A stretch of DNA of 64,000 nucleotides from Massilia polaris (GTDB lineage: Bacteria > Pseudomonadota > Gammaproteobacteria > Burkholderiales > Burkholderiaceae_D), in the NCBI RefSeq assembly GCF_012927275.1, contig NZ_JABBGG010000002.1:124001-188000 (forward strand). Reading direction: 5' to 3'. Under the pieces are notes generated by a model, which saw nothing but the letters and a program-made list of their open reading frames with translations, was not told the DNA's origin and made no database searches. Shown here in pieces: positions 12,883 through 42,981 of this stretch (position 1 is its first letter; each line of letters begins with the position of its first letter). Position numbers and translations under genes: made by a program.

Positions 12883-14148
12883 TCAAACAAGCGTGTTCAA
12901 GCGCGGGCTGAGCCCGCCATACACGGCGCGGTAGCGCGCCACGCTGCCGGCCCAGGTGCGTTCGCGCTCGACAAAGCTGCGGCCGCGCGCGCGCAGCATG
13001 GGCCAGCTGTGCGGCGCGTCGAGCAGCGCCAGCACCGTGCGCGCCAGGGCGGCCGCGTCGCCGGCCTCGAACAGCACCCCGGTCTGGCCGTCGGCGATGA
13101 GTTCGCGGTGGCCGCCCACGTCCGAGGCCGCCAGCAGCCGCCCCTGCGCCATCGCTTCGAGCGGCTTGAGCGGCGTGACCAGCTCGGTCAGGCGCATTTT
13201 CAGGCGCGGATAAACCAGCACGTCGACCAGGTTGTAGTAGCGCTGGACCTGGTCGTGCGGCACCCGCCCGGTAAAGATCACCTTGCCGGCGATCCCCAGC
13301 TGGCGCGCCTGGGCCTTCAGCAGCTCCTCCTGCGGGCCGCCGCCGACCAGCAGCGCGCGGGTGTCCGGGTTGGCCGCCAGCATGGCGGGCATCGCGGCCA
13401 ACAAGACATCCAGTCCTTCGTAGGCATAGAACGAGCCGATGAAGCCCAGCACCTGCTTGCCCTGCAGCCCCAGTGCGGCCGCCAGCGCCTCGTCGCGCTC
13501 GCCGGCGACGCTGAAATCGTCGACGTTGACGGCGTTCGGGATCACCGTGATTTTTTCGGCCGCGATGCCGCGCCCGACGATGTCGGCGCGCAGCCCTTCG
13601 CAGATGGTGGTCACCGCGGCCACCCGCTTGATGGCATAGGTTTCCATCGCGCGCGTGAGGCGGTAGCGCAGGCCCCATTCGCGGCTGGTGCCGTGGTCGA
13701 CCGCGGCGTCTTCCCAGAAGGCGCGGATTTCATACACCACCGGGATGCCGAGGCGGCGCCCGACCCGCAGCGCCGCGAGCGCGTTGAGCGCCGGCGAGTG
13801 GGCGTGCAGCACGTCGGGCCTGCACTCGCGCGCCACTTCCAGCAGGCGTGCGGCCAGTGCGTCGATCAGCGCCAGTTGGCGGAACGCCGGCGCCGACGCC
13901 AGCAGGCCGCGCGCCGGTTTGGTGCGGTAGAAGGCCAGGTCGGCGACCTGCTCCAGCCCGCCCTCAGTCGCGCCCTGCTTGGGACCGGTCAGGTGGAAGG
14001 TCTGCCAGCCCTGCGCGCGCTGCTGCTGCAGGATCGCGCGGGTGCGGAAGGTGTAGCCGCTGTGCAGCGGGATCGAATGGTCCAGCACGTGCAGCACGCG
14101 CAGCGGCGCCGCCGCCGCGCTGGCGCTGGCCAGGGGCTTATTCTCCAT
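12883..14148 (-). CDS. XrtA/PEP-CTERM system glycosyltransferase, Daro_2409-like (TIGR04063 type)
   Basis: A 421-residue GT4 enzyme. It begins with VLHVLDHSIPLHSGYTFRTR, a signature I associate with the exosortase A-linked Daro_2409 family. Other motifs are HAHSPALNALAA, YEIRAFWEDAAVDHG, TVIPNAVN and the donor region RLTELVTPLKPLEAMAQG. The start ATG at 14148 overlaps the end of the amidotransferase gene by 11 bp. It acts in the cytoplasm on the lipid-linked glycan. The subfamily name rests on recall of sequence pattern and on position in the operon. Confidence 0.87.
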   Translation of the reverse strand: MENKPLASASAAAAPLRVLHVLDHSIPLHSGYTFRTRAILQQQRAQGWQTFHLTGPKQGATEGGLEQVADLAFYRTKPARGLLASAPAFRQLALIDALAARLLEVARECRPDVLHAHSPALNALAALRVGRRLGIPVVYEIRAFWEDAAVDHGTSREWGLRYRLTRAMETYAIKRVAAVTTICEGLRADIVGRGIAAEKITVIPNAVNVDDFSVAGERDEALAAALGLQGKQVLGFIGSFYAYEGLDVLLAAMPAMLAANPDTRALLVGGGPQEELLKAQARQLGIAGKVIFTGRVPHDQVQRYYNLVDVLVYPRLKMRLTELVTPLKPLEAMAQGRLLAASDVGGHRELIADGQTGVLFEAGDAAALARTVLALLDAPHSWPMLRARGRSFVERERTWAGSVARYRAVYGGLSPRLNTLV

Positions 14149-16039: not shown

Positions 16040-17223
16040 GTTTTTTCCGGTTTCCTCGTTTGATGTTTCTGTTCGCACAACTGGTCGTACAGGCCGAGGT
16101 AGGCGGCGACCATGGCGTCCATGGCGTAGTGGCGCAGCACGCGCGCGCGCCCGGCCTGGCCGTGCTGCGCGGCCAGGCCGGGCGCGGCGACATACCGCGC
16201 CAGCGCATCGGCCAGCGCCTGCGGGTCGGACGGCGGCGCCAGCGCGCCGGTGACGCCGTCTTCAATGACTTCCGGGATCCCGCCGACGCGGGTGGCCGCC
16301 ACCGGCAGGGCGCTGGCCATCGCCTCCAGCGCCGCGCCGGGGGTGCCCTCGGCGATCGAGGCCATGGCGAACACGTGGAAACCGCGCAGGATCTCGGCGA
16401 CGTCGGCGCGCGACCCGGGCAGCCAGACTTCCCGTTCGAGGCCGGCCTGCGCCGCGCGCGCCCGCAGCGCCGGCAGCAGCGGGCCGTCGCCGACAATGGC
16501 CAGGCGCAGCCGCGCGCGCTGTTCCGGCAGCTGTTGACGCAGCAGGATGAAGGCTTCCAGCAGGGTGGCGTGGTCCTTGACTTGCTGGATGCGGCCGACG
16601 CTGCCGATGACGATGCAGCCGTCGCCGAACGGGCCGGGGGCGGGCGCGTCGCCGTGCTCGCGCGGGCGGAACCTGGCGGTGTCGATGCCGTTCGACAGCA
16701 GCCGGCTCTTGGCGGACGGTACCCCGATCACGTCGCTATGCCATTTCACCATGGCCGCCGAATTGGCGTAGTAACAGTCGTAGAACGGCAGCATCAGCCG
16801 GCGCAGCAGGTTATGCCTGGCGTTGAGGCCATGCGGATCATGATGGTCGCGCCCGTGGGCGCCGTTGATCCGTACCGGCACGCCGGCCAGCAGCGCCACC
16901 GGCGCATATTCGATCGCCGACAGGTTGTAGGTGTGGATGATGGTCGGGTTCAGGCGGCGCAGCAGCGACCACAAGGCCAGGTGGGTGCCGGGCGACAGGC
17001 CGGGCTGCTTGTGCAGCGCATGCAGCGTCACGCCCTGGCGGCGGATCTTGTCGGCGAACGCGGTGTAGTCGGTCAGGCACACCACCGCATGGCGGTAGCG
17101 GGTGGCGCACATGCGGTTGATGCGCTCGACCAGCAGCGACTCGAGGCCGCCGAAATCGAGCCGGTAAATCAGGTGCACCACCAGCGGCGGCGCCTCCTGC
17201 ATCGCGCTGCGCGCCGCCGTCAT
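16027..17223 (-). CDS. XrtA/PEP-CTERM system glycosyltransferase (TIGR03088/stp2 type)
   Basis: A 398-residue GT4 enzyme with the N-terminal pattern VVHLIYRLDFGGLESLLVERIN, which I recognise from the EpsH1-associated sugar transferases. HTYNLSAIEYA, SNGIDTARF, VGRIQQVKDHATLLEAF and EGTPGAALEAMASALPVAATRVGG follow in the canonical GT-B order. The ATG at 17223 forms an ATGA overlap with the exosortase gene stop. It is predicted to be cytoplasmic and to build the glycan. Confidence 0.88.
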   Translation of the reverse strand: MTAARSAMQEAPPLVVHLIYRLDFGGLESLLVERINRMCATRYRHAVVCLTDYTAFADKIRRQGVTLHALHKQPGLSPGTHLALWSLLRRLNPTIIHTYNLSAIEYAPVALLAGVPVRINGAHGRDHHDPHGLNARHNLLRRLMLPFYDCYYANSAAMVKWHSDVIGVPSAKSRLLSNGIDTARFRPREHGDAPAPGPFGDGCIVIGSVGRIQQVKDHATLLEAFILLRQQLPEQRARLRLAIVGDGPLLPALRARAAQAGLEREVWLPGSRADVAEILRGFHVFAMASIAEGTPGAALEAMASALPVAATRVGGIPEVIEDGVTGALAPPSDPQALADALARYVAAPGLAAQHGQAGRARVLRHYAMDAMVAAYLGLYDQLCEQKHQTRKPEKTCVE

Positions 17224-18767
17224 GGCTGGCTCCGGGTGCGTTCGAGCGTGGTTTCCAGCGCCGCCAGGTTGGCCGCCAGGAAGGCGCGCATGGCCTCGCG
17301 CGCCGCTTCCGGCCGCTCGTCGAACGGCGCCGACACCACCAGTATCGCGCCGTCGTCGCGCTTGCTCATCAGTTTTTGCCTTACCTGCAGTAGCTTGCCG
17401 GTGTACGGGCTGGCGGTGGCGGTGCCGTCGATCCAGTACCAGTGCCATACCAGGACCCTGGCGCCGGAGCGCGCGAACAGCAGAACTTCGCGCAGCGCCA
17501 GGCGGCGTTCGCCGAGCAGCTCGGTGCGGGTAACCGGCGTTTCCTGACGCCACAGCTTGTGCGATTCCGGCGCCACCAGGCGGTTGCTTGAGCTGATCAG
17601 CTCGGTGCCGGCCGGCCCGCTGCGGTAGAAGAACAGGTCGAGCGCCACCGCCTGGCCGCCGTTCTGGTAGGACTGGTGCAGCTCGGCGCTGGCACCCTTG
17701 AAGTGGGGCTGCAAGCGGGCCGGCGCGACGGCCGGCTCCCACGCCGGCGTGAACGAGGCCAGCTCGACCGGCGCCTGGGCGCCGTGCGCCGGGCGGCCAA
17801 GATAACTGCCGTACGCCGGCCACAGCGCCAGGCTGAAGGCGAGCGCGGCGGCCATGGCGCCGATGCGCGCCGGCGCTGGCCAGGTCACCGATGGCGCGGC
17901 CGCCGCGACGACCGGGGCCGCCGGCCTGTCCTCGCGCCAGAAGCTGCCGATCCAGAACAGCAGGAACATCACGATGCCGAAGAACACCCAGCCGTAGATC
18001 AGGTGGTCGACGCCGACCGCCAGGGTCATGCCGGACAGGTGGCCGATCATGACGATGGAATAGGCGCGCAGGCCGTTGGCCACGATCGGCACCAGGATCG
18101 AAAACAGCACGAACAGCGCGCGCCTGCCGGCCGAACGGTAGCTCAGGTAGGCATACAGGCAGCCCAGGGTGAACGAGGAAATCAGGTAGCGCACGCCACT
18201 GCAGGCTTCCACCACCGACCAGTTGCCGGTCGGGAGGCTGAAGCTGTTACCTTCGCGGAACACCGGGATGCCGCTGGCGCGCACCGCGTCGACCGTGAAA
18301 TCGGCCGTCACGCCGATCAGCGGGTCGATCAGGGATTCGCCGAACGGCACGCCCAGCAGCAGGAACAGCAGCGGGAAGGCGATCACGCGGGCGATGCGCA
18401 GCCCCAGCACGGCCAGCACGCAGAGCGGCAGCATCGCGGCCAGCGCGAACTGGCGCACGATCGATACCCCGCCAATGCTGCCCAGCAGCCAGGCCGCGCC
18501 GCACACGGCCAGCAGCAGCAGGGCCGGCCAGAACGGCGCGACGGGCAGGTTCTGCAGCTCGGCGCGGCGGCGCCAGATCATCCATGCGCTGAGCGGGACG
18601 ATCACGAAGCCGTGGGCGAAAGTTTCCGAGCGCTGCCAGATGCCGACGATCGACGCGGCGGTCGAAAAATACACCAGCAGCGGCAGCAGCAGCGCCGCCC
18701 CGATCAGGGCGAACAAGGCGTACTGCGGGGCCGGACGGGCCGGCGCGAGCGTCATGCTGGCTTCCAT
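17220..18767 (-). CDS. xrtA: Exosortase A fused to EpsI domain
   Basis: A 515-residue membrane protein. Residues about 15-290 form the exosortase: eight or so hydrophobic segments with the catalytic triad Cys189 (SVVEACSGVRYL), Arg234 (VANGLRAYS) and His243 (IGHLSG). After a cytoplasmic linker, a final helix near residue 310-325 leads into a periplasmic EpsI domain with PHFKGASAELHQSY, LFFYRS and LVWHWYWIDG. The start at 18767 is chosen for its TGGGAGG ribosome site; a second ATG at 18755 would give an ATGA overlap. Exosortases cleave PEP-CTERM proteins for anchoring or export; the substrate in this window is at 32135-32986. EpsI fusions are common in the XrtA type. Confidence 0.93.
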   Translation of the reverse strand: MEASMTLAPARPAPQYALFALIGAALLLPLLVYFSTAASIVGIWQRSETFAHGFVIVPLSAWMIWRRRAELQNLPVAPFWPALLLLAVCGAAWLLGSIGGVSIVRQFALAAMLPLCVLAVLGLRIARVIAFPLLFLLLGVPFGESLIDPLIGVTADFTVDAVRASGIPVFREGNSFSLPTGNWSVVEACSGVRYLISSFTLGCLYAYLSYRSAGRRALFVLFSILVPIVANGLRAYSIVMIGHLSGMTLAVGVDHLIYGWVFFGIVMFLLFWIGSFWREDRPAAPVVAAAAPSVTWPAPARIGAMAAALAFSLALWPAYGSYLGRPAHGAQAPVELASFTPAWEPAVAPARLQPHFKGASAELHQSYQNGGQAVALDLFFYRSGPAGTELISSSNRLVAPESHKLWRQETPVTRTELLGERRLALREVLLFARSGARVLVWHWYWIDGTATASPYTGKLLQVRQKLMSKRDDGAILVVSAPFDERPEAAREAMRAFLAANLAALETTLERTRSQP

Positions 18768-25446: not shown

Positions 25447-26985
25447 TTACAGTTGCGGACGGATAAATAAGGCCGCCATGACCGCGCCGTACGCGCTAAA
25501 CAGCACCAGGACAGCGGCGCCGAAGGCATAGGTACGCTTGGCGCGGCGCACTTTCTGCTCCTCGGTCCAGTTCATGCTGATACTGCCCAGCACAGGGATG
25601 CCGGCCACTTCGCGCAAGCTGTACTGGGTCATGAAGGTCGGGCGGACCTGGCTCATCAGGAGCGCGGCGCCGAGGCCCGCGACCAGGGCGCCGAGGAACA
25701 CGAAGGAGAACAGGCGCATGCGGTTGGGGCCGGCCGGAACCGACGGCACCGTCGGCGGGTCGATGACGCGGAAGGTCAGGATGTCGGTAGCCGAGCTGAG
25801 TTCGCCGGACAACTTGGCGGCCTCGCGGCGGCTCACCAGTTGCTCGTAATTGGCCTTGTTGATCGCGTAGTCGCGGTTGAGCTGGGCCAGTTGCGCCTCG
25901 ATCTCGGGCGCGCGGGTGCTGTTGGCACGCACCCGCGCCACGCGGCTGGCATATTCCGCCACCCGCGCCCGCAGCGAGGCCACGCGCGCTTCCTCAACCG
26001 AGAGCGCGACATTCATCTGTTGCAGCATCGGGCTGTAGTTGACGCCCGGATCGTTGTTGCGCTTGACGCGCTTGGACTCGTCCACCTTGCGCGCTTCCAG
26101 CTGGGCGATCAGGCGCTTGCCGGACACGATGTCGGGATGCTCCTCGGTAAATTGCATGCGCAGCGCATCGAGGTTTTTCTCCAGCGCCGCGATGCGGCCG
26201 TCGATCTCCGGATTGACCAGCGTGTCGGCGCTCGGCGCGCTCGGCGGGGCCGGCTCCTCGCCGCCAATCTGGCGTTTGATCGCTTCGCGCGCCTGTTCGG
26301 CTTCGGTCAGCTCGAGGCGGGCGGCGCTGAGCATGTCTTCAAGTTGCACCATGTTGCCGCTGAAATCGCTGTCGCCCCCGCGCGGCAGGATGTTGACGTT
26401 GTTGATCCGGAATTCCTTGACGACGTTCTCGGCCTGGATCAGCCTGTCCTCGTAGCTCTTGATCTGCTCATCGATGAACTGGATCGCCTTTGCCGAATCC
26501 TGCGCCTTGCCGCCGGAGCTGCCCTCCACGAAGATGGTCAGCAGCGACTGCACCACATCCTTGCCGAGCTTGCGGTTGGGGTTGTTGTACGAGATCGTGT
26601 AGATGTCGTCGCGCTCGGTACCGGCGATGCTGATGTTGGCCATCAGGTCGTCGACCATTGCCTCGCTTTGCTTGGGCGTAATCGCCTTGACATCGAGGTC
26701 GACCATGCGCATCACCCGCTCCACGTTGGGACGGCTGATCAGGGTGCGCCGCATGAAGCCGACCTGCTGGTCAATGTTAGGCACGCTAGTCATGCCAGAC
26801 AGCAATGGACGCAGGATGGACTGGGTATCGACATACACGCGCGCCGTGGCCTGGTACTCGTTGGGTAGACGGTAGACGGTAATCCAGCCGATCACGGCAA
26901 CAATCCAGGAAATGGTGATGGCGTACCAGCGGTATTTCCAGATTGCCTTGAGGAAACTTGTAATGAGGACGGTCAGTTCTGCCAT
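25447..26985 (-). CDS. XrtA system polysaccharide chain-length determinant (Wzz/PCP family, TIGR03007 type)
   Basis: A 512-residue polysaccharide co-polymerase. The first helix is near residues 20-37 (YRWYAITISWIVAVIGWITV), followed by the Wzz motif YRLPNEYQATARVYVDTQS. A long coiled-coil periplasmic part (about residues 170-400) leads to the second membrane region (RLFSFVFLGALVAGLGAALL) and a final helix at the C-terminus. It heads the XrtA operon. It works with the downstream kinase to set chain length. A 367-bp gap separates it from the divergent protease gene. Confidence 0.92.
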   Translation of the reverse strand: MAELTVLITSFLKAIWKYRWYAITISWIVAVIGWITVYRLPNEYQATARVYVDTQSILRPLLSGMTSVPNIDQQVGFMRRTLISRPNVERVMRMVDLDVKAITPKQSEAMVDDLMANISIAGTERDDIYTISYNNPNRKLGKDVVQSLLTIFVEGSSGGKAQDSAKAIQFIDEQIKSYEDRLIQAENVVKEFRINNVNILPRGGDSDFSGNMVQLEDMLSAARLELTEAEQAREAIKRQIGGEEPAPPSAPSADTLVNPEIDGRIAALEKNLDALRMQFTEEHPDIVSGKRLIAQLEARKVDESKRVKRNNDPGVNYSPMLQQMNVALSVEEARVASLRARVAEYASRVARVRANSTRAPEIEAQLAQLNRDYAINKANYEQLVSRREAAKLSGELSSATDILTFRVIDPPTVPSVPAGPNRMRLFSFVFLGALVAGLGAALLMSQVRPTFMTQYSLREVAGIPVLGSISMNWTEEQKVRRAKRTYAFGAAVLVLFSAYGAVMAALFIRPQL

Positions 26986-27126
26986 TTGCTCAGTCTCTAG
27001 GGGACATGCGAATTAATTGAAGCGGCGCCCCAGGGAGCACGCCGGCCAATGTCCCGGTTTCAGCAGCGCCCGCGGCGCCCCTTTGACCGGTGAAAAATAC
27101 TGCTTTGAAGCAGAATGTCATGTCAT

Positions 27127-27154
27127 ATTGTACATGAGTCAAACTGCCGCACAA
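27127..27154 (-). promoter_or_regulatory. Possible sigma-70 promoter of the XrtA operon
   Basis: On the minus strand TTGTGC and TACAAT are separated by 16 bp, about 140 bp before the chain-length gene. The -10 box is good and the -35 box is mediocre. It would be an alternative to the sigma-54-like site 30 bp further upstream. Confidence 0.35.
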
Positions 27155-27184
27155 CGTAGTTTCCTGAACATAAGTGCAAATATT

Positions 27185-27199
27185 GCAACATGCGAACCA
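27185..27199 (-). promoter_or_regulatory. Sigma-54-like promoter upstream of the XrtA operon
   Basis: The minus strand reads TGGTTCGCATGTTGC. It has the GG and GC pairs at the exact 10-bp spacing and a perfect TTGC -12 element; the -24 element TGGTTC differs from TGGCAC at two bases. It lies 200 bp before the ATG at 26985 inside the 26986-27352 gap. That gap also contains a 14-bp inverted repeat, GCGAAA-AG-TTTCGC, at 27232-27245. No gene or RNA could be supported in the gap. Confidence 0.5.
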
Positions 27200-27352
27200 G
27201 CATGCCGATGTCAAAACTGGCAGCCGTCCCAGCGAAAAGTTTCGCACATTGAAACGTCGTCAGGGTAATAAAACGTATAGCGGACAACTTATTTACAACA
27301 ACCTATCGGCCCCGCGATGGCTTTCGGGAAAATTGTTGTTTCAAGGATGCCA

Positions 27353-28144
27353 ATGCGGTATTGTGATTTGATGATGCCAAGACATGCCCGCGAAACGCTT
27401 TTGCTGCTGTTCACACTTGTGCTGGGCGCGCCCGCGCGCGCCGACGACCTGGTCCGCACGATCCAGGCGGTGAAGCCGTCGGTGGTCGGCATCGGCACCT
27501 ACCAGCGCACGCGCTCGCCCGCGGTCCAGTTCGTGGCGACCGGCTTCGTGGTGGGCGACGGACGCAGCGTGATCACCAACGCGCACGGGATACCCGCTAA
27601 CCTGGACCTGGCCAACATGGAGACCTTGGGCGTGGTGATCGGCAATCGCGGCAAGGTCGAATTCCGCCCCGCCACGGTGGTGGCGCGCGATCCTGCCCAC
27701 GACCTGGCGCACCTGCGCATCGAAGGCGCCGCCCTGCCCGCGCTGGCGCTTGGCGGCCCCGCCGACGTCGCCGAAGGCCAATCGCTGGCATTTACCGGCT
27801 TCCCGCTGGGCATGGTGCTTGGCCTGCACGCGGCCACCCACCGCGCCTCGCTGGCGGTGATCGCCCCGATCGTGCTGCCCGCGCTAAGCTCCGGCAAACT
27901 CAACAGCCGCACGGTGTCGCGCCTGTCGGCCCCGGCCTTCCCGATCTACCAGCTGGACGCGACCGCTTATCCGGGCAACAGCGGCAGCCCGGTCTACGAT
28001 CCCCAGACCGGGGTGGTGCATGCCGTGATCAATATGGTGCTGGTCAAGGGATTGAAGGAAAGCGCGATTTCTACGCCCAGCGGCATCAGTTATGCCATCC
28101 CCGTCAAGCATGTGCGGGACTTGCTCGAGCAGGCGGCGCCCTGA
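27353..28144 (+). CDS. Secreted trypsin-like serine protease
   Basis: A 263-residue S1-type protease, exported. The N-terminus has a signal peptide (TLLLLFTLVLGAPARADD, cleavage after ARA). The catalytic triad is visible as His in SVITNAHGIPANLD, Asp in ARDPAHDLAHLRI and Ser in YPGNSGSPVYDP. No PDZ domain follows, unlike DegP. The ATG at 27353 is chosen because AAGG lies 6 bases before it; an ATG at 27371 would also leave an intact signal peptide. It sits between the XrtA operon and the export lipoprotein gene, 110 bp upstream of the latter. Processing of secreted proteins or surface matrix proteins is plausible. Confidence 0.85.
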   Translation: MRYCDLMMPRHARETLLLLFTLVLGAPARADDLVRTIQAVKPSVVGIGTYQRTRSPAVQFVATGFVVGDGRSVITNAHGIPANLDLANMETLGVVIGNRGKVEFRPATVVARDPAHDLAHLRIEGAALPALALGGPADVAEGQSLAFTGFPLGMVLGLHAATHRASLAVIAPIVLPALSSGKLNSRTVSRLSAPAFPIYQLDATAYPGNSGSPVYDPQTGVVHAVINMVLVKGLKESAISTPSGISYAIPVKHVRDLLEQAAP

Positions 28145-28254
28145 GCCCGTTGGGTTCGATACTGATGAGCGCCGCGCGGGAAAATTATCATGCTAAAATA
28201 GAAACTGTTTTACGCAACATCCGTTACCGCCCAAGACCAGAAAAGGAAATACCC

Positions 28255-28890
28255 GTGACTACATATAACAAAACGGCGCGCGCATGGTTGGCTGGATGTG
28301 CCGCGGTGGCGATTGCCCTGACGCTCGGCGGCTGCGCCAGCCGTGGCGGCGGCGCCGCACTGGCCGACGCCAAGCCTGTCACCGATCACACTTACCTGAT
28401 CGGCCCTGGCGACAACATTAACATCGTGGTGTGGCGCAATCCGGAAGTGTCGACGTCGGTTCCGGTGCGTCCGGACGGCAAGATCACCACCCCGCTGGTG
28501 GAAGACCTCGAAGCCAGCGGCAAGACCTCGACCGAACTGGCGCGCGACATCGAAAAGGCGCTGGCCAAGTTCATCCAGCAGCCGGTCGTGACCGTGATTG
28601 TCACGGGCTTCGTCAGCACCTATGGCGAACAGATCCGTGTGATCGGCCAGGCGGCCCGGCCGCAGGCGCTGCCGTACCGCCGCGACATGTCGCTGATGGA
28701 CGTGCTGATCATGGTTGGCGGCGTCACTGAGCTCGCTTCGGGCAACAAGGCGACCATCATCCGCAAAATCGACGGCAAGAACCAGGTGATTCCGGTGCGC
28801 CTGGACGACCTGATCAAGGATGGCGACATTTCCGCGAATCTCTACATGCGCCCGGGCGACATCCTGGTCGTTCCGGAGAGTTTCTTCTGA
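28255..28890 (+). CDS. XrtA system exopolysaccharide export lipoprotein (Wza/BexD family)
   Basis: A 211-residue polysaccharide biosynthesis/export lipoprotein. The signal peptide ends in a lipobox LTLGGC (Cys about residue 25). The mature protein carries YLIGPGDNINIVVWRNPEVS, the Poly_export motif, and a SLBB-like region RVIGQAARPQALPYRRDMSL. It starts with GTG at 28255, preceded by AAGGAAAT; an upstream in-frame ATG would put a long non-signal extension before the lipobox. It should form the outer-membrane export channel or its periplasmic part, partner of the chain-length protein. In many loci it is the first operon gene; here it lies on the opposite strand. Confidence 0.92.
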   Translation: MTTYNKTARAWLAGCAAVAIALTLGGCASRGGGAALADAKPVTDHTYLIGPGDNINIVVWRNPEVSTSVPVRPDGKITTPLVEDLEASGKTSTELARDIEKALAKFIQQPVVTVIVTGFVSTYGEQIRVIGQAARPQALPYRRDMSLMDVLIMVGGVTELASGNKATIIRKIDGKNQVIPVRLDDLIKDGDISANLYMRPGDILVVPESFF

Positions 28891-28900
28891 GGTCACGATA

Positions 28901-28934
28901 CCGCCGCTTCGCTCGCGGGCGGCTGTCGGTTTTT
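28901..28934 (+). terminator. Possible intrinsic terminator after the export lipoprotein gene
   Basis: A GC-rich hairpin (CCGCC 28901-28905 with GGCGG near 28918-28922) is followed 7 bases later by a run of five T. The spacing to the T-run is longer than usual, so this is weak. Confidence 0.3.
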
Positions 28935-29012
28935 CTTACAGTGCATCGCCCGACGAAGTCGCTGTATGCTGCAAGCTGCTGATATTCAAGGACATTTTAC
29001 TGGCGATGGTTT

Positions 29013-29027
29013 GGGTATGAATCTTGC
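29013..29027 (+). promoter_or_regulatory. Sigma-54-like promoter before the PqqD/HprK cassette
   Basis: GGGTATGAATCTTGC has GG and GC at the exact 10-bp spacing and a perfect TTGC -12 element. The -24 half keeps only GG and A of TGGCAC. It lies 48 bp before the ATG at 29075. Taken alone it is weak; it gains weight from the strong site before the nearby PEP-CTERM gene. Confidence 0.4.
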
Positions 29028-29074
29028 TTGATATGCCTGGAGCCGCACGGCTGCGCAACCCGAGGGAATGAAGA

Positions 29075-29740
29075 ATGAAAACGACGTCAAATAGCGATAA
29101 GCAGGCGGATGCGGGACCCGCCGCGGCTGGCGGCTTACCAGCTTCCGGCTTGGCGCGGCGCCGTTTCGCCCGTGTTGGCGCAGGCGCGACCGGCGTCCTG
29201 CTGACACTGAGCAGCCCCTCCGGTATGGCCGGGGCCGCTTGTGTCTCCGGATCGGACGGGACGTCGCACGCTGTGGCATATACCCACGCGCCCGACACGG
29301 TCGCAACCTGCGGCGGGGTGTCGCCCGGCTACTATAAAAACAATCCCGAGGGATGGCCGGCCGACATACCGGCAACGACCCACTTGAAGTTCCAGGACAT
29401 CTATGCCATCAATTCCTCCTACGCCGTTCTGGGCGGGCTGACACTGATGGAAGTATTTGAAATCGGCAATGGCAATGGCAAGGACAAGAAGCCTGGCGGC
29501 GGCCCGGTGGTTACCGAAGATCCGGATCCGGAAAACGTCGGCCGCCATTTCCTTGCCGCTTACCTGAACTTGAAATCGGACCGCGCTACCGTCCTCGACG
29601 AGCCGACCCTGAAACGCATGTGGCGCGAATACGTCGACACTGGCGGGGGCCATATCGGCTACTACCAGCCGTCCGCGACGGTAAAATGGTATGGCAAGGA
29701 CCTTGTGCATTACCTGACCACCGTGACCTTCCATAATTAA
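29075..29740 (+). CDS. Exported protein of unknown function with SPGYYKN motif
   Basis: A 221-residue protein. Residues 1-28 are polar; then ARRRFARVGAGATGVLLTLSSPSGMAGA (29-56) resembles a twin-arginine signal peptide with cleavage after AGA. The mature part contains CGGVSPGYYKNNPEGWP (about residues 79-95), similar to SPGYWKNHP motifs I recall in secreted bacterial proteins of unknown function, and a glycine/lysine linker around residue 131-140. Two cysteines (about 56 and 79) could pair. A GAGGGA ribosome site precedes the ATG. It is first in a tight cassette with PqqD-like, HprK-like and nucleotidyltransferase genes, so it could be their substrate. Function is unknown. Confidence 0.75.
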   Translation: MKTTSNSDKQADAGPAAAGGLPASGLARRRFARVGAGATGVLLTLSSPSGMAGAACVSGSDGTSHAVAYTHAPDTVATCGGVSPGYYKNNPEGWPADIPATTHLKFQDIYAINSSYAVLGGLTLMEVFEIGNGNGKDKKPGGGPVVTEDPDPENVGRHFLAAYLNLKSDRATVLDEPTLKRMWREYVDTGGGHIGYYQPSATVKWYGKDLVHYLTTVTFHN

Positions 29741-29752
29741 GCGCCATAATGA

Positions 29753-30040
29753 TTGTTTGTTTTGCAATTTTCAGAACCTGAACATCGTTGGCAGCTGACG
29801 CAAGGCCAACTGGTGCGCCACATGATCTGCGGGGACGAAGCCGTCCTTTATAACGAACTGAGCGGCGATACCCACCTCGTCGATTCGGACGTCATCGCGG
29901 TGCTGCTCGCGCTGCGGGCCGGTGCCGCCGGCGTGCCCGAGTTGTGCGCCCGCCTCGATGCCGGCGCCGATGCCGCGGCAGGCATCGGGACGATCCTGGC
30001 GGGGCTGCGCCACCTGGCACTGGTCGAATGGGCCACATGA
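29753..30040 (+). CDS. PqqD-like protein, HPr-rel-A system (TIGR04353 type)
   Basis: A 95-residue PqqD-fold protein, the peptide-binding RRE type. The conserved core LVRHMICGDEAVLYNELSGDTHLVDSDVIAVLLAL matches the PqqD pattern of a beta-hairpin followed by helices. The start is uncertain: TTG at 29753 or TTG at 29762, with no clear ribosome site, so translation may be coupled to the preceding gene 12 bp upstream. Its stop overlaps the kinase ATG (ATGA). PqqD proteins bind precursor peptides and hand them to modifying enzymes, which suggests a peptide or protein substrate for the cassette. Confidence 0.82.
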   Translation: MFVLQFSEPEHRWQLTQGQLVRHMICGDEAVLYNELSGDTHLVDSDVIAVLLALRAGAAGVPELCARLDAGADAAAGIGTILAGLRHLALVEWAT

Positions 30041-30954
30041 TCACCGTGTCCGAACTGTCGCGCGCGGAGCTGCGCCGGCGCCTGGCCAGCTCCGGGATCG
30101 CCTTGCGCACGGGCTGCTTCATTACCCGGCTGCACAGCCCCATCAGTCGCGTGGCCGACGCCATTCACCTGCTGTATGCCGACTACCCCCTGGCCGAGGA
30201 CGCTCAGTTTGCCGATTTCCATGTCAGCGTCGCGCCGTCCCAAGGCTTGCGCCGCTGGTACAAACCGCAGGCCAAGTTCTACCTCGATGGCGATTCGCTG
30301 TTCAATCCACTCCCGCTGACCCATGCCTATCCGATGCTGGAATGGGGCTTGAACTGGTGCGTGTCCACCCGCGCCCACAACTACCTGATCCTGCACGCGG
30401 CGGTTGTCGAAAGAAATGGCCTCGCCGCGATCCTGCCGGCGCCGCCCGGCTCCGGCAAGAGCACCCTGTGCGCTGCGCTGGTGAGTTCCGGCTGGCGCTT
30501 GCTGTCCGATGAACTGACGATGATCCGGCCGGCCGACGGCATGCTGGTCCCGCTACCCCGTCCTATCAGCCTGAAGAATGCCTCGATCGACGTCATGCGG
30601 CAGTTCCATCCTGCCGCCGTCATCAGCCAGCCCGTCGCCAATACCACCAAGGGCACGGTGGCGCACGTGAAGGCGCCGGCCGACAGCATCCGGCGCGCCG
30701 GCGAAGTGGCGCGGCCGGCCTGGATCGTGTTTCCCAAGTACGCGGCGGGCGCCGCCACCACGCTCGAACCGATCGCGCAGGCGCGCGCCTTCATGCGGGT
30801 GGCCGAGAACGGGTTCAACTACAGCGTACTGGCCGGCATCGGGTTCGACACGATGGCGGGATTGATCGGCCGCACCCGAAGCTACGCGTTCACCTACAGT
30901 GACCTGCACGAGGCCATCGATGCCTTTTCCCGCCTGGAGCCGCCGCCCCCTTGA
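30037..30954 (+). CDS. HprK-related kinase A
   Basis: A 305-residue protein related to the HPr kinase/phosphorylase catalytic domain. The P-loop is LPAPPGSGKSTLCAAL (about residues 135-150), followed by LLSDELTMIRP, which aligns with the metal-binding acidic region. VSISLKN-type sequence (RPISLKNASIDVM) follows as in HprK relatives. It lacks the HprK N-terminal domain, and there is no HPr nearby. In lasso-peptide clusters, HprK-like kinases phosphorylate the precursor, usually at a C-terminal Ser. The ATG at 30037 overlaps the PqqD-like stop; its own stop overlaps the next start. Confidence 0.87.
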   Translation: MITVSELSRAELRRRLASSGIALRTGCFITRLHSPISRVADAIHLLYADYPLAEDAQFADFHVSVAPSQGLRRWYKPQAKFYLDGDSLFNPLPLTHAYPMLEWGLNWCVSTRAHNYLILHAAVVERNGLAAILPAPPGSGKSTLCAALVSSGWRLLSDELTMIRPADGMLVPLPRPISLKNASIDVMRQFHPAAVISQPVANTTKGTVAHVKAPADSIRRAGEVARPAWIVFPKYAAGAATTLEPIAQARAFMRVAENGFNYSVLAGIGFDTMAGLIGRTRSYAFTYSDLHEAIDAFSRLEPPPP

Positions 30955-32024
30955 ATGCCACGCCGATCCTCCTGCACATCCTGCGTGATCCGGCGCAGGC
31001 GCCGTCGCTCACCGACGCGGACTGGGACCTGCTGGTGCGCCAGGCCGCCAGCGCCCGCCTCGACGCTACCGTACAAAGCCTGCTCGACGAACGGGGCATG
31101 CTGGCATCGGTGCCGCCCCAGGTCCAGGTCCACTTCGAATGGGCACGCACCTATGCCGACCGCCACCGCAAGGCGGTGCACTGGGAAGTGCGCCAGATCC
31201 GGGCCGCGCTGGAAGGGCTGGGGCTACCGCTGATCCTGCTGAAGGGCGGCGCCTATGCCGCTGCAGGGTTGCCGGCAGCGCGCGGCCGGGTGTTTACCGA
31301 CATCGACATCCTGGTGCCGAAGGAGCGCCTGGACGTGGTCGAGGCCGCGCTGATGATGCACGGCTGGCACGCCGTGCACCAGGACGACTATGACCAGCGC
31401 TATTACCGCAACTGGATGCATGAACTGCCGCCGATGCAGCACGTCAAGCGCGCGACCTCGATCGACGTCCACCACGCGATCCTGCCGCTGACGGCGCGGG
31501 CGCGCCCCGATTCGCGCCTGCTGCGCGAAGCCGCCGTCGCGGCAGGCGAAGACCCGGCGCTGCAGGTGCTGGCGCCAGCGGACATGATCCTGCACAGCGC
31601 GACCCACTTGTTTTACGGCGAATTCGACAACAGCCTGCGCGACCTGGTCGACATCCACCGCCTGCTGCAGGAGTTCGGCAGCCGGCCCGGGTTCTGGCGC
31701 GAACTGGACGCGCGCGCCCGCAGCCTCGAACTGGGACGTCCCTTGTTCTACGCGCTGCGCTATGCGGTGCGGCTGCTCGGCACCCCGGTGCCGGCGCAAG
31801 CGCTACGCGCCAGCGCCGCGTGGGCGCCAGGGCGGGCCCTGCTTGCACTGATCGACGCGCTGATGGTGCGCGGCCTGATGCCGCCCCACGCAAGCTGCCG
31901 GCTGCCCGGCACCGGCGCCGCACTGTTGGCGCTGTACGTACGCTCGAACTGGCTGCGCATGCCGCCGCTGCTGCTGGCGCGCCACCTGTTCCACAAAGCC
32001 TTCCTCTCCCCCCAGCCAGGCTGA
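30951..32024 (+). CDS. Nucleotidyltransferase-family protein (NTP_transf_5 type)
   Basis: A 357-residue member of the NTP_transf_5 family. The core LKGGAYAAAGLPAARGRVFTDIDILVPKE contains the GG and DxD motifs of the nucleotidyltransferase fold (about residues 99-127). HALPL-type VHHAILPLTARARPD follows and the C-terminal half is helical. The only start consistent with the conserved N-terminus is TTG at 30951, overlapping the kinase TGA as TTGA. Related proteins accompany HprK-like kinases in some lasso-peptide clusters, where they extend the phosphate. Here the target is unknown. Confidence 0.82.
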   Translation: MNATPILLHILRDPAQAPSLTDADWDLLVRQAASARLDATVQSLLDERGMLASVPPQVQVHFEWARTYADRHRKAVHWEVRQIRAALEGLGLPLILLKGGAYAAAGLPAARGRVFTDIDILVPKERLDVVEAALMMHGWHAVHQDDYDQRYYRNWMHELPPMQHVKRATSIDVHHAILPLTARARPDSRLLREAAVAAGEDPALQVLAPADMILHSATHLFYGEFDNSLRDLVDIHRLLQEFGSRPGFWRELDARARSLELGRPLFYALRYAVRLLGTPVPAQALRASAAWAPGRALLALIDALMVRGLMPPHASCRLPGTGAALLALYVRSNWLRMPPLLLARHLFHKAFLSPQPG

Positions 32025-32055
32025 CCCCGAAGGTGGCGACTTTTGCTTCGCCCAT

Positions 32056-32088
32056 AAAAAATGCCGCTCAGTCAGACTGAACGGCATT
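32056..32088 (-). terminator. Rho-independent terminator of the PEP-CTERM gene
   Basis: On the minus strand a long hairpin (AATGCCG and CGGCATT arms, extended inside by TCAGT/ACTGA) is followed by six T. It lies about 50 bp after the PEP-CTERM stop codon. Confidence 0.8.
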
Positions 32089-32134
32089 GAGTGATTGAGC
32101 TAGTCAACCAACGCTGCTTGCGCAGCGGTTTTAT

Positions 32135-32986
32135 TTATGCTTTCTTGCTGCGGCGGGAGAATGCAACACCTGCCAGTGCCAGGCCGAACAGTGCCAGGCT
32201 TGCCGGCTCTGGTACTGGCTGGAACGAAGCGTTGCCCGAACCGAGAATCGTGATATCGGTTGCATCGCTGAAGCCGTCGCCTGGAACGCCTGCGATCAGG
32301 CTGTTGACGCCATTGATGTCGGTCTGGGCCGAGCCACTCGCAAACGCGTCGCCGCCGAAGAAGCCGTTCAGTGCGATCGCGGTAGCGATCACGTCGAAGT
32401 CGCCGTTAGCCAGACCGCCAGCGATGTGGAAACCGCCGAAGTTCTCAACCAGGGTGCCGGTCAGCACAGCGATGTCATCGGTAGTGTCGCCGATCGGGGC
32501 GATGCTTTCATTCGCGCCGCCTACGGTAACGGTATTAAAGTCGGTGTCCATATCGCGGTCGACATAAATCGTGTAGTTGAAGGCGCTGAACGTGCCGTCA
32601 ATGGTGCCGCCGCCGCCAGGCGCGGTGGTTCCGGCCGCGGAGAACACGAAGTACATCGCATAGTTGTTGTTCAGGCCAGTGCCGCCGACCACAGGGCCGT
32701 TCAGGGCAGTACGGAAGGTGCCGAAGAAGCCGCCACCGGTCTCGACGAACGATGCCGATCCTGCGCCGGTATTGGTTTGATCCACTTCAGCGCCATAGCT
32801 GAAATCGATGAATTTTGCGGTGCAGGTGCCGCCGCCGCAACCTGCTTCGCCGATTGCCCCAGGATTGATCGTGAAGGTTTGCGCGGTGAACGCGAAGCCT
32901 GGCACGTGATCCGCCATTGCTGCCGAGCTCGACAGGGCCAGAACTGCTGCGGCTACCAACTTGCCGATTTTGTTTAATTTGATCAT
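32135..32986 (-). CDS. PEP-CTERM sorting domain protein
   Basis: A 283-residue secreted protein, the likely substrate of the exosortase in this window. It begins with a signal peptide (KIGKLVAAAVLALSSSAAMA) and ends with VPEPASLALFGLALAGVAF followed by the basic tail SRRSKKA, the canonical PEP-CTERM arrangement. The mature region is Gly/Ala/Thr/Asn-rich with low Lys and few Cys (a GCGGGTC pair near residue 50), as is common in these proteins. The ATG at 32986 is preceded by CGGAG. A sigma-54 promoter lies 71 bp upstream and a terminator follows. Specific function is not known; a matrix or floc-forming role is typical of the class. Confidence 0.94.
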   Translation of the reverse strand: MIKLNKIGKLVAAAVLALSSSAAMADHVPGFAFTAQTFTINPGAIGEAGCGGGTCTAKFIDFSYGAEVDQTNTGAGSASFVETGGGFFGTFRTALNGPVVGGTGLNNNYAMYFVFSAAGTTAPGGGGTIDGTFSAFNYTIYVDRDMDTDFNTVTVGGANESIAPIGDTTDDIAVLTGTLVENFGGFHIAGGLANGDFDVIATAIALNGFFGGDAFASGSAQTDINGVNSLIAGVPGDGFSDATDITILGSGNASFQPVPEPASLALFGLALAGVAFSRRSKKA

Positions 32987-33056
32987 TTTGTGGCTCCGTT
33001 TCGTTATTAGGTTATGTCGCTGGAATCTTAAAATTCGTGCTTGCCAACCTGTATAA

Positions 33057-33071
33057 GCAGCAACCGTGCCA
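33057..33071 (-). promoter_or_regulatory. Sigma-54 promoter of the PEP-CTERM gene
   Basis: The minus strand reads TGGCACGGTTGCTGC: a perfect -24 TGGCAC, five bases, then CTGC in place of TTGC, with GG and GC exactly 10 bp apart. It lies 71 bp before the ATG. RpoN control with an activator of the PrsR type is reported for PEP-CTERM genes in other betaproteobacteria. Confidence 0.78.
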
Positions 33072-33113
33072 GCGCTGTCCAATCTGTTTAAGATCAATGA
33101 CTTAAGTAACTAG

Positions 33114-33127
33114 CAACAAGTTTGTTG
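33114..33127. promoter_or_regulatory. Inverted repeat CAACAA-GT-TTGTTG upstream of the sigma-54 promoter
   Basis: A perfect 6-bp inverted repeat lies 43 bp upstream of the -24 element, a position where a sigma-54 activator could bind. It uses the same half-sites as the repeat at 2236-2252. No experimental consensus is known to me. Confidence 0.4.
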
Positions 33128-33177
33128 TCGTTAATGGCCAAGCCCTTGTAAAGTAAACCGACAGTGCGCTAGCACGC

Positions 33178-34296
33178 TTAGGGGGGCCGGTTTCCCGCGC
33201 CTGGCTTGGCCGCCCCGTGCATCAGCTGCGCCAGGTCCGGACGGGTCGAGCGCGCGACCGCGCTCTTGCCCTGTCCGAGGCGCCCCATGAAGACCGGGAA
33301 ACCGTCCTGCTTGCCCAGCACCCGGTCGAGTTGCCCGGCAAGGCCGACCGCCATTTCCTTCAGCTTGCCGGTTGCGGTGAAGTCCATGCGGCCGTTGCGG
33401 ACATAAGACGAGAAGATCAACGGTGTCATTTCCGGCTGCATCACCAGCCCGAGATTGGTCAGGGTCAGCCAGAAACGCTGCATCGCGCGACCGGCGGCAA
33501 CGTAGTCCGCCACCGATGCAGGCTGCACCTTCGCGCGGATCACGAAATGGGCCGCGCAGGCCAGGCCGGGCACCAGGTCCATCTGCAGCCGCGGCGCCCA
33601 GGTGCCCATCAGCGTGTTCATCCGCTTTAGGCGGTCCCAGCTGACCATCGCCCACTTCATCAGGTGGAGCGTCATGTTGTCGACGCCCAGCGCCTGGTCG
33701 GGCACGCCCCATTCCGAGGTGACTTTACCCCACTTGATGATGCGTTTGTGGACCGTATAGGCTTCCGGCATCAGCAGGCGCAGGCGCGCATTGTCATACA
33801 TGAGCCGCGCGGCGTCCATGCGGGCGCCGCCCTCCAGCCACTGGACCAGGTAGCCGACGCCGACCGCCTGTTCGAGCGCCTGCTTTTCGGCCGCCGTCAG
33901 CGCGCGCCTGCTCATCGGGCGGCGCTGGACGCTGCGCACCTCGATCGCGGGGATCAAGGGATCCGGCGCCAAGCCCGGCTGCTCGGTGAAGGTCACGTCG
34001 AACACCGGCTCCTTGTCGCTGCAGCCCTCGCGCAGCCGCACCTCGGCCGCGAGGCCGTGTCCGGTGGCGGCGATCGCCATGGTCTCGAGCATCGCGCCGA
34101 TCGCGACCTGGCTCGGCCATCCTTCAAGGTCGTATACGCAATGGTCGCTGGTGTCGCAGCAATGCACGCGCACCCGCATTGGGTCGATGAGTTCGAAACG
34201 CCACGGCTGGTCGTTGTCGCCGCTGGGCGCCCATTTGGCTTTTTCGAGGATGGCGACCATGCGGCCGGTGTCTGCGTGGGACTGTGCGAGGGTCAT
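33178..34296 (-). CDS. Nitroreductase-family protein (MoeY-like)
   Basis: A 372-residue protein of the nitroreductase/FMN-binding superfamily. AILEKAKWAPSGDNDQPWRFE near residue 15 is the classical nitroreductase FMN-phosphate motif (APSxxNxQPW). The RRPMSRRALTAAE region and RFWLTLTNLGLVMQPEMTPL fit the C-terminal part. Proteins of this kind are annotated MoeY and found beside ThiF/MoeB-like enzymes. The ATG at 34296 is 12 bp after the ThiF-like stop. It is likely cytoplasmic and FMN-dependent; whether it acts on a small acyl-amino acid product or on a cofactor is unknown. Confidence 0.8.
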   Translation of the reverse strand: MTLAQSHADTGRMVAILEKAKWAPSGDNDQPWRFELIDPMRVRVHCCDTSDHCVYDLEGWPSQVAIGAMLETMAIAATGHGLAAEVRLREGCSDKEPVFDVTFTEQPGLAPDPLIPAIEVRSVQRRPMSRRALTAAEKQALEQAVGVGYLVQWLEGGARMDAARLMYDNARLRLLMPEAYTVHKRIIKWGKVTSEWGVPDQALGVDNMTLHLMKWAMVSWDRLKRMNTLMGTWAPRLQMDLVPGLACAAHFVIRAKVQPASVADYVAAGRAMQRFWLTLTNLGLVMQPEMTPLIFSSYVRNGRMDFTATGKLKEMAVGLAGQLDRVLGKQDGFPVFMGRLGQGKSAVARSTRPDLAQLMHGAAKPGAGNRPP

Positions 34297-34308
34297 GATC
34301 TGTTCCGG

Positions 34309-35217
34309 CTAGTTGGAGTTGGCCTGGCGCGCGCTGGCAGCGGCGCTTTCGCGCAGCAGGCTGTCCAGGTGGCGGCGGCCGATGGCGATGGCGAGGCGCT
34401 GGATCGGGTTCTTGTTGCCGCCCGGACGCCAGGTGTGTGCCATCTTGTTGCGGTACGGATCGAACTGAAGGCCGTGCGGCGCCGCCAGCACCTTGCCGCG
34501 TTTCAGCAGGATCTTCAGGGCCTGGGTGGCGGCGATGCCGGCGCAGATCTGCACCGACATGATGGTGGACGGGCCGCGCCGCTCGGAAAAATTGACCGCC
34601 GACGGATCGACCAGGTAGGCGCGGTGCAGGCCGGCCGGCGACAACCCGACCAGGAAGCGGATCGCCTTTTCGTTCTCCGGCAGGTCGCCCCACTGGAAGT
34701 ATTCCTCGAACGTCATCTGGCCGGGCAGGAAGTTCAGCACCGCCGCGCCCGTGCCCAGCGGCGCCACCGTGGTCGACGGGATGGCGCGCGCGGCGCAGGC
34801 GGCGAAGGTCTTCTGGCGGATGTCGAACACGAAGAAGTCGAGGCCGTCGATATACAGGTCGACGCCGTCGAGGAAGGCAGGCAGGCTGGACGCATCGACG
34901 CCGTGCGGGAAAATGGTGATGTCGGCTTCAGGATTGATGTCGCGCACCATGTCGGCGATGACCTCGACCTTGGCCTTGCCGCGGGTCGACATCATGGCGC
35001 CGACCTGGCGGTTGAAGTTGGCGATGTCGTAGGTGTCGAAGTCGGCCAGGTGGAACGCGCCCACCCCCAGCCGCGCCAGCGTCACCGCATAGATGCCGCC
35101 GACCCCGCCCATGCCGGCGATGGCGACCCGGGCGCCGCGCAGCTTTTCCTGTTCCTCCCGCGTCACCCAGCCGATATTGCGCGAGAAAGCTTCAGAATAG
35201 GAAAATTGATTAATCAT
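34309..35217 (-). CDS. ThiF/MoeB-like E1 adenylyltransferase
   Basis: A 302-residue E1-like enzyme. VAIAGMGGVGGIYAVTLARLGVG is the ATP-binding glycine-rich loop, ADFDTYDIANFNRQVGAM holds the conserved Asp, Asn and Arg-Gln residues, and STIMSVQICAGIAATQALKILL matches the late helix of ThiF proteins. The CxxC zinc pairs of classical MoeB are not seen, so it differs from the housekeeping enzymes. No MoaD/ThiS-like partner lies nearby. It is 56 bp downstream of the FeeM-like gene and just upstream of the nitroreductase gene. It probably adenylates a carboxylate, perhaps of the acyl product of its neighbour; that is inference. Confidence 0.85.
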   Translation of the reverse strand: MINQFSYSEAFSRNIGWVTREEQEKLRGARVAIAGMGGVGGIYAVTLARLGVGAFHLADFDTYDIANFNRQVGAMMSTRGKAKVEVIADMVRDINPEADITIFPHGVDASSLPAFLDGVDLYIDGLDFFVFDIRQKTFAACAARAIPSTTVAPLGTGAAVLNFLPGQMTFEEYFQWGDLPENEKAIRFLVGLSPAGLHRAYLVDPSAVNFSERRGPSTIMSVQICAGIAATQALKILLKRGKVLAAPHGLQFDPYRNKMAHTWRPGGNKNPIQRLAIAIGRRHLDSLLRESAAASARQANSN

Positions 35218-35273
35218 GGGCGAAATGCCCGTGACGGGCGTGATTGTTCAGGGAAAAACTGCGGGAGTCTTGC

Positions 35274-36038
35274 TTAGCCGATATTAAACAGCCGGTTCGC
35301 AATCCCCATTTCCTCGCGTTTGGAGAAGAAGTACGGATACAGCGAACGCTCGGTGCCGGGATTTTCGCTGGTGCCGCCGAGGCGCTCAATTTCCTTGCCC
35401 ATATAGTCAAGGTTCAGCCACATCAGGTAGGCCGGCGCGTCGACACGCGGGTTGGAGCGCACTTCCGTCAGCGTCTTAAACCCGAGCATGTGCTCGTAAT
35501 AACGGCGATGGCGCGGATTGATTTCGATAAACGCATCCGTGCACTGGTACAGGTGGTGGGCATAGATATACAGGATGTGGAACAGCGACCCGAGCGCCAT
35601 TTTCGAGCGTACGGTCGGATCGAACGCCAGCTTGCTGATCTCGCAGACCCGTGCGCCACGTTCGCGGAACCCGTCGATGTGGTCCTTGAACACCTCGTCT
35701 GCAAGGATCCCGATCGGCGAGTCGATGCCGAGTGTGACTGTCCCGATGACGGCGCCCTTGTCGGAGGCCGACAGCGTAATGCGATTGGGGTTGTCATCAA
35801 TGCGGTGGGTTCCTACATATCCTCGCCATGCATACATCTTATTGATGAGCATGCTTGCATGATTTCGGCCTTCTTCCGTGTCTGCAACCCGGATACCGAA
35901 GGCTCTTTCGTTAATTGTCATCTCGCGGATGTTATCAGAGGATCCAGCACCTGTCCTGTCGAGCACGCTATCGTGCGCAGGTCTTCCCTCGGAATCGAAA
36001 CCGAATGTGATGAAGGTATCGAGGATCTTTTCCATCAT
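35274..36038 (-). CDS. FeeM-like N-acyl amino acid synthase
   Basis: A 254-residue protein of the GNAT/autoinducer-synthase fold. FGIRVADTEEGRNHASMLINKMYAWRGY (about residues 47-74) matches the N-terminal FeeM pattern, ITLSASDKGAVIGTVTLGID the acceptor beta-strand and RVCEISKLAFDP the motif that binds acyl-ACP in FeeM/LuxI relatives. FIEINPRHRRYYEHMLGF follows. FeeM enzymes condense a fatty acyl chain from ACP with an amino acid. The Met at 36038 follows a GGAG ribosome site; 36035 is also possible. It heads the triad with ThiF-like and nitroreductase genes. Confidence 0.84.
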   Translation of the reverse strand: MMEKILDTFITFGFDSEGRPAHDSVLDRTGAGSSDNIREMTINERAFGIRVADTEEGRNHASMLINKMYAWRGYVGTHRIDDNPNRITLSASDKGAVIGTVTLGIDSPIGILADEVFKDHIDGFRERGARVCEISKLAFDPTVRSKMALGSLFHILYIYAHHLYQCTDAFIEINPRHRRYYEHMLGFKTLTEVRSNPRVDAPAYLMWLNLDYMGKEIERLGGTSENPGTERSLYPYFFSKREEMGIANRLFNIG

Positions 36039-42905: not shown

Positions 42906-42981
42906 TGGTGCGGCTGGCGGGGATCGAACCCACGACCCTTGGCTTCGGAGGCCAATACTCTATCCACTGAGCTACAGCCGC
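42906..42981 (-). tRNA. tRNA-Arg (anticodon CCG)
   Basis: A 76-nt gene with encoded CCA. The acceptor stem is GCGGCTG paired with CAGCCGC. The anticodon stem TTGGC/GCCAA encloses the loop CTCCGAA with anticodon CCG. The T arm contains GGTTCGATCC. It reads codon CGG. Its 3' half is duplicated at 39511-39559, marking it as an integration target. Confidence 0.95.

Follow-up and report, generated by a model that had tools for sequence, protein, structure and literature searches.

The 64,000-nucleotide stretch of the Massilia polaris genome analysed here (hereafter the window; assembly GCF_012927275.1, contig NZ_JABBGG010000002.1, positions 124,001 to 188,000, forward strand) carries at 29075-32024 a four-gene cassette. 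It encodes an exported protein with a twin-arginine translocation (Tat) type leader, a PqqD-like protein, an HprK-related kinase and a nucleotidyltransferase-like protein of the NTP_transf_5 family. Comparison with other genomes makes it fairly probable that this cassette is a substrate-plus-enzymes unit, in which the leader would be read, the kinase would act on serines, the NTP_transf_5 protein may carry out a further step and the product would leave through the Tat pathway. The exported protein (hereafter the cargo) is likely the target of the enzymes, a proposal that is well supported as linkage and unproven as chemistry. The cassette and the main sites of the cargo are as follows.

29075..29740, + strand: Tat-leader exported protein (cargo), proposed substrate, 221 residues; no NCBIfam family
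29144..29236, + strand: Tat-type leader of the cargo, about residues 24-54, with the twin arginine R28 R29 (extent judged by eye)
29252..29266, + strand: Ser60 to Ser64, proposed modification region, both serines being invariant in Oxalobacteraceae (50/50)
29321..29341, + strand: SPGYYKN motif, residues 83-89 (family consensus SPGYWKN)
29567..29569, + strand: Asn165, invariant in the body (50/50 Oxalobacteraceae)
29753..30040, + strand: PqqD-like protein, proposed leader-binding chaperone (TIGR04353, 47.5 bits; cut-off 35)
30037..30954, + strand: HprK-related kinase A, 305 residues (TIGR04352, 399.3 bits; cut-off 200)
30951..32024, + strand: NTP_transf_5 nucleotidyltransferase-like protein (PF14907, 189.1 bits; cut-off 31.2)

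The first two genes are separated by a 12 bp spacer. The PqqD-like gene starts at a TTG and overlaps the kinase gene by ATGA (30037-30040), which in turn overlaps the nucleotidyltransferase gene by TTGA (30951-30954). Gene order, coordinates and junctions all agree with an earlier description made from the sequence alone (the original prediction), and so do the identities that it gave to the three enzymes, all above the cut-offs of their families, and the SPGYYKN motif that it placed in the 221-residue protein.

Co-occurrence of the cargo and the enzymes in Oxalobacteraceae

Fifty of the 195 Oxalobacteraceae genomes sampled encode a TIGR04352 kinase over the cut-off (hereafter kinase genomes). 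A single-sequence search found homologues of the exported protein in 48 of the 195 genomes, all 48 being kinase genomes, and no detectable homologue in the 145 genomes without the kinase. The co-occurrence that the original prediction proposed to look for is thus observed (48/48), and homologues occurring mostly without the enzymes, which it named as the contrary outcome, are not (0/145). In the two kinase genomes missed by the homology search (G085 and G119), the slot holds a gene of the same kind. A cargo gene therefore lies upstream of the PqqD-like gene at all 50 kinase loci, that of the window included (49 others were fetched), the one at L077 being recognised by eye only. This gene order, kept in relatives, is therefore not due to chance. 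Cargos, at about 26-52% tblastn identity with the window protein, are more divergent than kinases (49-69%), and the twin arginine, Ser60, Ser64 and Asn165 are kept in all 50 cargos.

A lineage-variable class of Tat-leader proteins in Pseudomonadota

Among 398 Pseudomonadota genomes, 61 encode a kinase over the TIGR04352 cut-off. The phylum set comprises 58 of these 61 loci, from 19 families; the other three are G366 (fragments) and the Oxalobacteraceae genomes G000 and G018, which were covered above. A small Tat-leader protein is encoded in or beside the same slot in 51 of the 58 loci, among them L153, where its gene lies on the opposite strand, and L186, where it lies somewhat further upstream; an NTP_transf_5 gene is found in 45. 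An automatic Tat rule is passed by 87 of 108 slots (one of them, L095, in the wrong frame) versus 124 of 6306 other open reading frames (ORFs) of at least 75 residues from the same loci, and a stricter first rule by 66 of 108 slots versus 92 of 5848 ORFs of at least 80 residues; locus counts above these automatic totals include cases recognised by eye. Among 80 named GTDB loci (L196-L275, a set that overlaps the Oxalobacteraceae set, e.g. L204, L213 and L214), 70 have a complete cargo gene and three more have one interrupted by contig ends. In the L238 cargo, Lys-Arg replaces Arg-Arg.

The bodies of these proteins fall into several types: SPGYWKN (the window), proteins ending in SCWxSF (alignment A3), proteins ending in TCFASLQ (A4) and singletons. 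When profiles of the body types are compared, alignment is limited to the leader (28 and 43 columns). A3 holds 28 of 50 phylum proteins, chosen by eye for their CWxS ending (L161 and L163 were left out), so that its C-terminal invariance is partly a matter of selection. A whole-protein SPGYWKN profile has matches in 12 of the 398 genomes, 11 of them with the kinase. In the twelfth, G533, which lacks the kinase, it is the body columns that match a stretch (G533:C23:21695-21964) inside a 760-residue frame; the body domain therefore also occurs outside the cassette. The original prediction had put forward the 221-residue protein as candidate substrate: its linkage to the enzymes stands, but the candidate is not one protein but a class with a Tat leader and a body that varies with lineage.

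Several loci have features of their own. A gene for a tetratricopeptide repeat (TPR) sulfotransferase (PF13469) directly follows the kinase in 12 related loci (L142, L150-L152, L160, L164-L166, L169, L171-L173), and in all 12 cargos Tyr-Tyr-Ala stands a little ahead of the terminal SCWxSF or TCWxSF; Tyr-Tyr is also found in four cargos without this sulfotransferase (L146, L159, L161, L175). At L159 (6938-9061), kinase and NTP_transf_5 share a single open frame, a natural fusion. The L163 cargo (6094-6255 from the leader on) is an 82-residue protein, barely more than leader and terminal SCLDSF. In L235 and L236, the ORF in the cargo slot encodes a putative HslV-like protein.

The leader as the common denominator

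A leader-only profile (A5), which lets substrates be found even when they do not adjoin the enzymes, was built on 32 positions from 58 leaders (every second one; 33 from named loci, 25 from phylum loci, L161 dropped); it contains relatives of the test genomes, and a strain may be shared between the named loci and these genomes. Tested on 26 kinase genomes that had contributed no leader to it, the profile has the cassette protein as its top match in 22 and as its second in four. In the window genome, the exported protein ranks first (E 1.0e-6; next E 0.0025). Eight phylum genomes had shown no adjacent cargo; the profile finds one in seven of them: a single adjacent protein (G434) and six unlinked ones, so that six of the seven genomes without a cargo at the slot encode it elsewhere. 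No cargo was found by the profile in the last genome (G382), which is 57% complete and has its kinase at a contig end. The six unlinked cargos all end in Cys-x-x-Ser-[FI], a feature outside the profile, and a PqqD-like gene lies beside four of them. At E<=1e-4, matches are found in 24 of 34 kinase genomes versus none of 80 genomes without a kinase over the cut-off (best control match E 3.0e-4); several of these controls have weaker HprK-like matches, and G261 and G262 were left out of them. Apart from these cases, a second cargo with an SCWTSL end and its own PqqD-like gene (L297:1811-2323, - strand; G378:C66) lies away from the kinase cassette of its genome, an assembly with 8% contamination.

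These data bear on the possibility that the exported protein, for instance a matrix protein or a sensor, accompanies the trio without being modified, the trio acting on another target and the linkage reflecting co-regulation only. Such a view would fit the location of the trio inside an exopolysaccharide locus, and targets beyond the neighbour are compatible with the sequence. It is unlikely, however, as the association survives unlinking (the six of seven genomes above) and as it is the leader, not the body, that the lineages have in common.

Properties of the cargo and of the enzymes

In the window protein, R28 R29 precedes a hydrophobic region, a twin arginine is found in all 50 Oxalobacteraceae relatives and tatC is encoded in the genome (210.5 bits); its export would be Tat-dependent. 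NCBIfam gives no match to the protein (E<=1) and Pfam a single one, below threshold (E 0.17), and none of ten diverse cargos reaches the cut-off of any family in either database. For the SPGYWKN body, structure prediction gives a domain that is compact and helical (predicted local distance difference test score, pLDDT, mostly above 80-90 over residues 61-110 and 131-200), for which Foldseek gave three matches in the PDB (best E 3.6); the model for the A3 type was poor (mean pLDDT 64.6) and was not used. A Ser-x3-Ser pattern is found in 112 of 117 cargos versus 41 of 359 control windows; it was built after viewing the sequences, and the window protein, which does have the two serines, falls outside its letter class.

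His120, Lys141, Asp158 and Glu159 are identical in 108/108 aligned kinases, as are Lys98, Gly99, Arg113, Asp117, Asp119 and Asp172 in 95/95 aligned NTP_transf_5 proteins. Because these catalytic residues are invariant and an alignment of the kinase with the HPr kinase 1jb1 (E 7.3e-4) covers the segment of His120, the P-loop and Asp158, both enzymes look catalytically intact. The kinase scores below the cut-off of the HPr kinase/phosphatase model TIGR00679 (15.6 bits; cut-off 240).

A model for cargo maturation

PqqD-fold domains read the leaders of ribosomal peptides. Taken together with the above data, the following model can be drawn. The cargo would be made with a Tat signal that doubles as a leader read by the PqqD-like protein. 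That this protein holds the leader is suggested by the leader being all that the lineages share and by the PqqD-like gene travelling with some of the unlinked cargos. By analogy with lasso peptide pathways, the HprK-like kinase would then phosphorylate at least one conserved serine of the cargo while it is still in the cytoplasm; the reaction is placed before Tat export because ATP is found in that compartment. In the window protein the candidate sites are most likely Ser60/Ser64, just past the predicted signal cleavage, and in other lineages the serine of the C-terminal Cys-x-x-Ser. The NTP_transf_5 enzyme may thereafter transfer a nucleotide or a sugar to the phosphoserine, a role that has been proposed for PsmN of pseudomycoidin, and the Tat machinery would export the folded, modified cargo, in the window probably to the exopolysaccharide/PEP-CTERM matrix. 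As a more tentative extension, which we hold to be somewhat less probable than an even chance, the PqqD-like protein would be of the RRE type (recognition element of ribosomal peptides) and the same N-terminal segment would both recruit the kinase and license export. Phosphorylation, possibly phospho-glycosylation, would then be coupled to Tat quality control on many unrelated bodies.

Several observations weigh against this model. The Pfam PqqD model PF05402 has no match at E<=0.001 anywhere in this genome and the PqqD-like protein matches no Pfam family; the label "PqqD-like" therefore rests on TIGR04353. None of the NCBIfam Tat models recognises the signal of the window protein (TIGR01409, E<=1), and among 11 proteins scanned one relative scored 14.9 bits against TIGR01409 (cut-off 16.7). 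The leader rule is not perfect, since seven of the 34 kinase genomes score no better than the best control and the leader scores of the sphingomonad-like group, G529, G531 and G495 are within the control range. No PqqD-like gene was detected alongside two of the six unlinked cargos, and seven of the 80 named loci, L235 and L236 with their HslV-like ORF among them, have no cargo gene in the slot, unlinked copies having not been searched for there. Finally, the Cys-x-x-Ser and Ser-x3-Ser motifs were spotted by eye after sorting and differ between lineages.

Comparison with known systems

The kinase and the PqqD-like protein, both above curated cut-offs, belong to a named family, the HPr-rel-A system (TIGR04352 and TIGR04353), of which an adjoining NTP_transf_5 protein, here PF14907 at 30951-32024, is presumably another trait. 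No substrate is named in the NCBIfam descriptions of these models, and the 11 cargos scanned match its models only as weak Tat-signal hits. In the open-licence literature, no paper naming TIGR04352 or TIGR04353 and no paper containing the SPGYWKN-type motif was found, and nothing on the cassette with a Tat protein, as judged by title or abstract start. The trio is thus already named, and the Tat-leader substrate class is undescribed as far as this literature was searched. Enzymes named without a substrate would thereby gain a direct, testable target in a leader-defined class of Tat-exported proteins.

The closest parallel is the tailoring of lasso peptides by PadeK, ThcoK and PsmK/PsmN, where, according to PMC9266682, an HprK-like kinase with His, Lys and Asp, a PqqD-like domain and a nucleotidyltransferase act on a leader-bearing precursor. 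PadeK phosphorylates the C-terminal Ser of the lasso precursor, and PsmN is required for the hexoses on the phospho-Ser of pseudomycoidin, its exact role being open (PMC9266682). The cassette differs in that neither a lasso cyclase nor a leader protease was seen, in its proposed substrate, a whole Tat-leader protein of about 80-310 residues, and in the fourth catalytic residue of its kinase, Glu159, versus the His-Lys-Asp-Asp of lasso kinases (PMC9266682). A lasso peptide system was rejected, in agreement with the original prediction, which claimed no cyclase here: none is found among the scanned genes, and the AsnB-like gene at 14138-16078 scores 264.5 bits against the lasso-cyclase model NF033535 (cut-off 525).

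This parallel raises the question of whether the exported protein could itself be a ribosomal-peptide precursor, whose modified C-terminal Cys-x-x-Ser piece would be excised to give a small, secreted phosphopeptide. PqqD-like proteins and HprK-like kinases do recur in lasso clusters with phosphorylation of the C-terminal Ser (PMC9266682), and the L163 protein retains leader and Cys-x-x-Ser end. Nevertheless, a scan of the genes around the window cassette revealed no dedicated protease or peptide exporter, bodies with a median length of 175 residues (counted from the twin arginine onward) are kept, and the SPGYWKN body is predicted to fold compactly, so that we regard such a precursor as improbable.

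As for the export step, the proposed role of the PqqD-like protein recalls the redox enzyme maturation proteins DmsD, TorD and NarJ, dedicated small chaperones that retain a Tat substrate until its cytoplasmic maturation ends (PMC4464133). The protein considered here is of the PqqD-like family, its binding to the leader is a proposal, and the maturation would be phosphorylation rather than cofactor loading. If the model is true, it joins leader-guided peptide modification with Tat proofreading and adds to the bacterial secreted phosphoproteins some that are modified prior to export.

The exosortase locus

Family scans of the window genes place the cassette within an XrtA/PEP-CTERM exopolysaccharide locus, whose neighbouring genes encode an export protein, a chain-length determinant, a tyrosine autokinase, an ATPase, an amidotransferase, a glycosyltransferase, a putative O-glycosylation ligase and PrsT. 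Those of note are the following.

28150..28890, + strand: XrtA-system polysaccharide export protein, upstream neighbour (TIGR03027, 234.6 bits)
17931..18707, - strand: exosortase XrtA, ~12 kb from the cassette (TIGR03109, 350.2 bits; converted from G000:C12:141931-142707)
14138-16078: AsnB-like gene, the XrtA amidotransferase (TIGR03108, 1074.8 bits; cut-off 816.9)
8873-10225, - strand: putative O-glycosylation ligase, exosortase A system (TIGR03097, 490.5 bits)

In Oxalobacteraceae, XrtA is over the cut-off in 48 of the 50 kinase genomes versus 23 of the 145 others (Fisher p 1.9e-25); it lies on the kinase contig in 45 genomes, at a median distance of 12.7 kb and within 45 kb in 44 of them. 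Of the phylum genomes, 23 of 58 with the kinase and none of 22 without it have XrtA over the cut-off. By cargo type, 0 of the 35 kinase genomes with an SCWxS-type cargo (34, including L163 and the unlinked ones) or no cargo (one) have it, and all 23 with other cargo types do. XrtA as an obligatory partner was therefore rejected, and its being below the cut-off in 35 of the 58 genomes means that the cassette is not an exosortase accessory in general. The coupling to the exosortase region that the original prediction proposed thus holds for the window and for Oxalobacteraceae but does not extend phylum-wide. Neither NCBIfam nor Pfam detects a PEP-CTERM signal in the exported protein, which was rejected as a PEP-CTERM substrate; the cassette shares with that system its place inside the locus, and differs in this lack of signal and in the 35 genomes without XrtA.

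The same distribution bears on whether the kinase and the NTP_transf_5 protein could have as their substrate, instead of a protein, an intermediate of exopolysaccharide synthesis (a sugar, a nucleotide or a polysaccharide). The setting of the cassette and the enrichment of XrtA in kinase genomes of the family would be in keeping with this. It is improbable, given that XrtA accompanies only 23 of the 58 wider kinase genomes, that a sugar kinase would not be expected to have a PqqD-like partner or to go with a protein bearing a leader and that, by sequence, the nearest solved relatives of the kinase are HPr kinases. The target of the enzymes would rather be the Tat-leader cargo.

Other features of the window

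An Rfam scan of 26900-33200 gave no match, and tblastn against plasmids gave none. The O-glycosylation ligase at 8873-10225 could be a partner in glycosylating the exported proteins of the window. Downstream of the cassette, a PepA-type PEP-CTERM protein (32135-33097) adjoins a row of consecutive nitroreductase-like, ThiF-like and FeeM-like (N-acyl amino acid synthase) genes (33178-36038, - strand). The sole tRNA gene detected in the window is a tRNA-Arg (ccg) at 42906-42981 (- strand).

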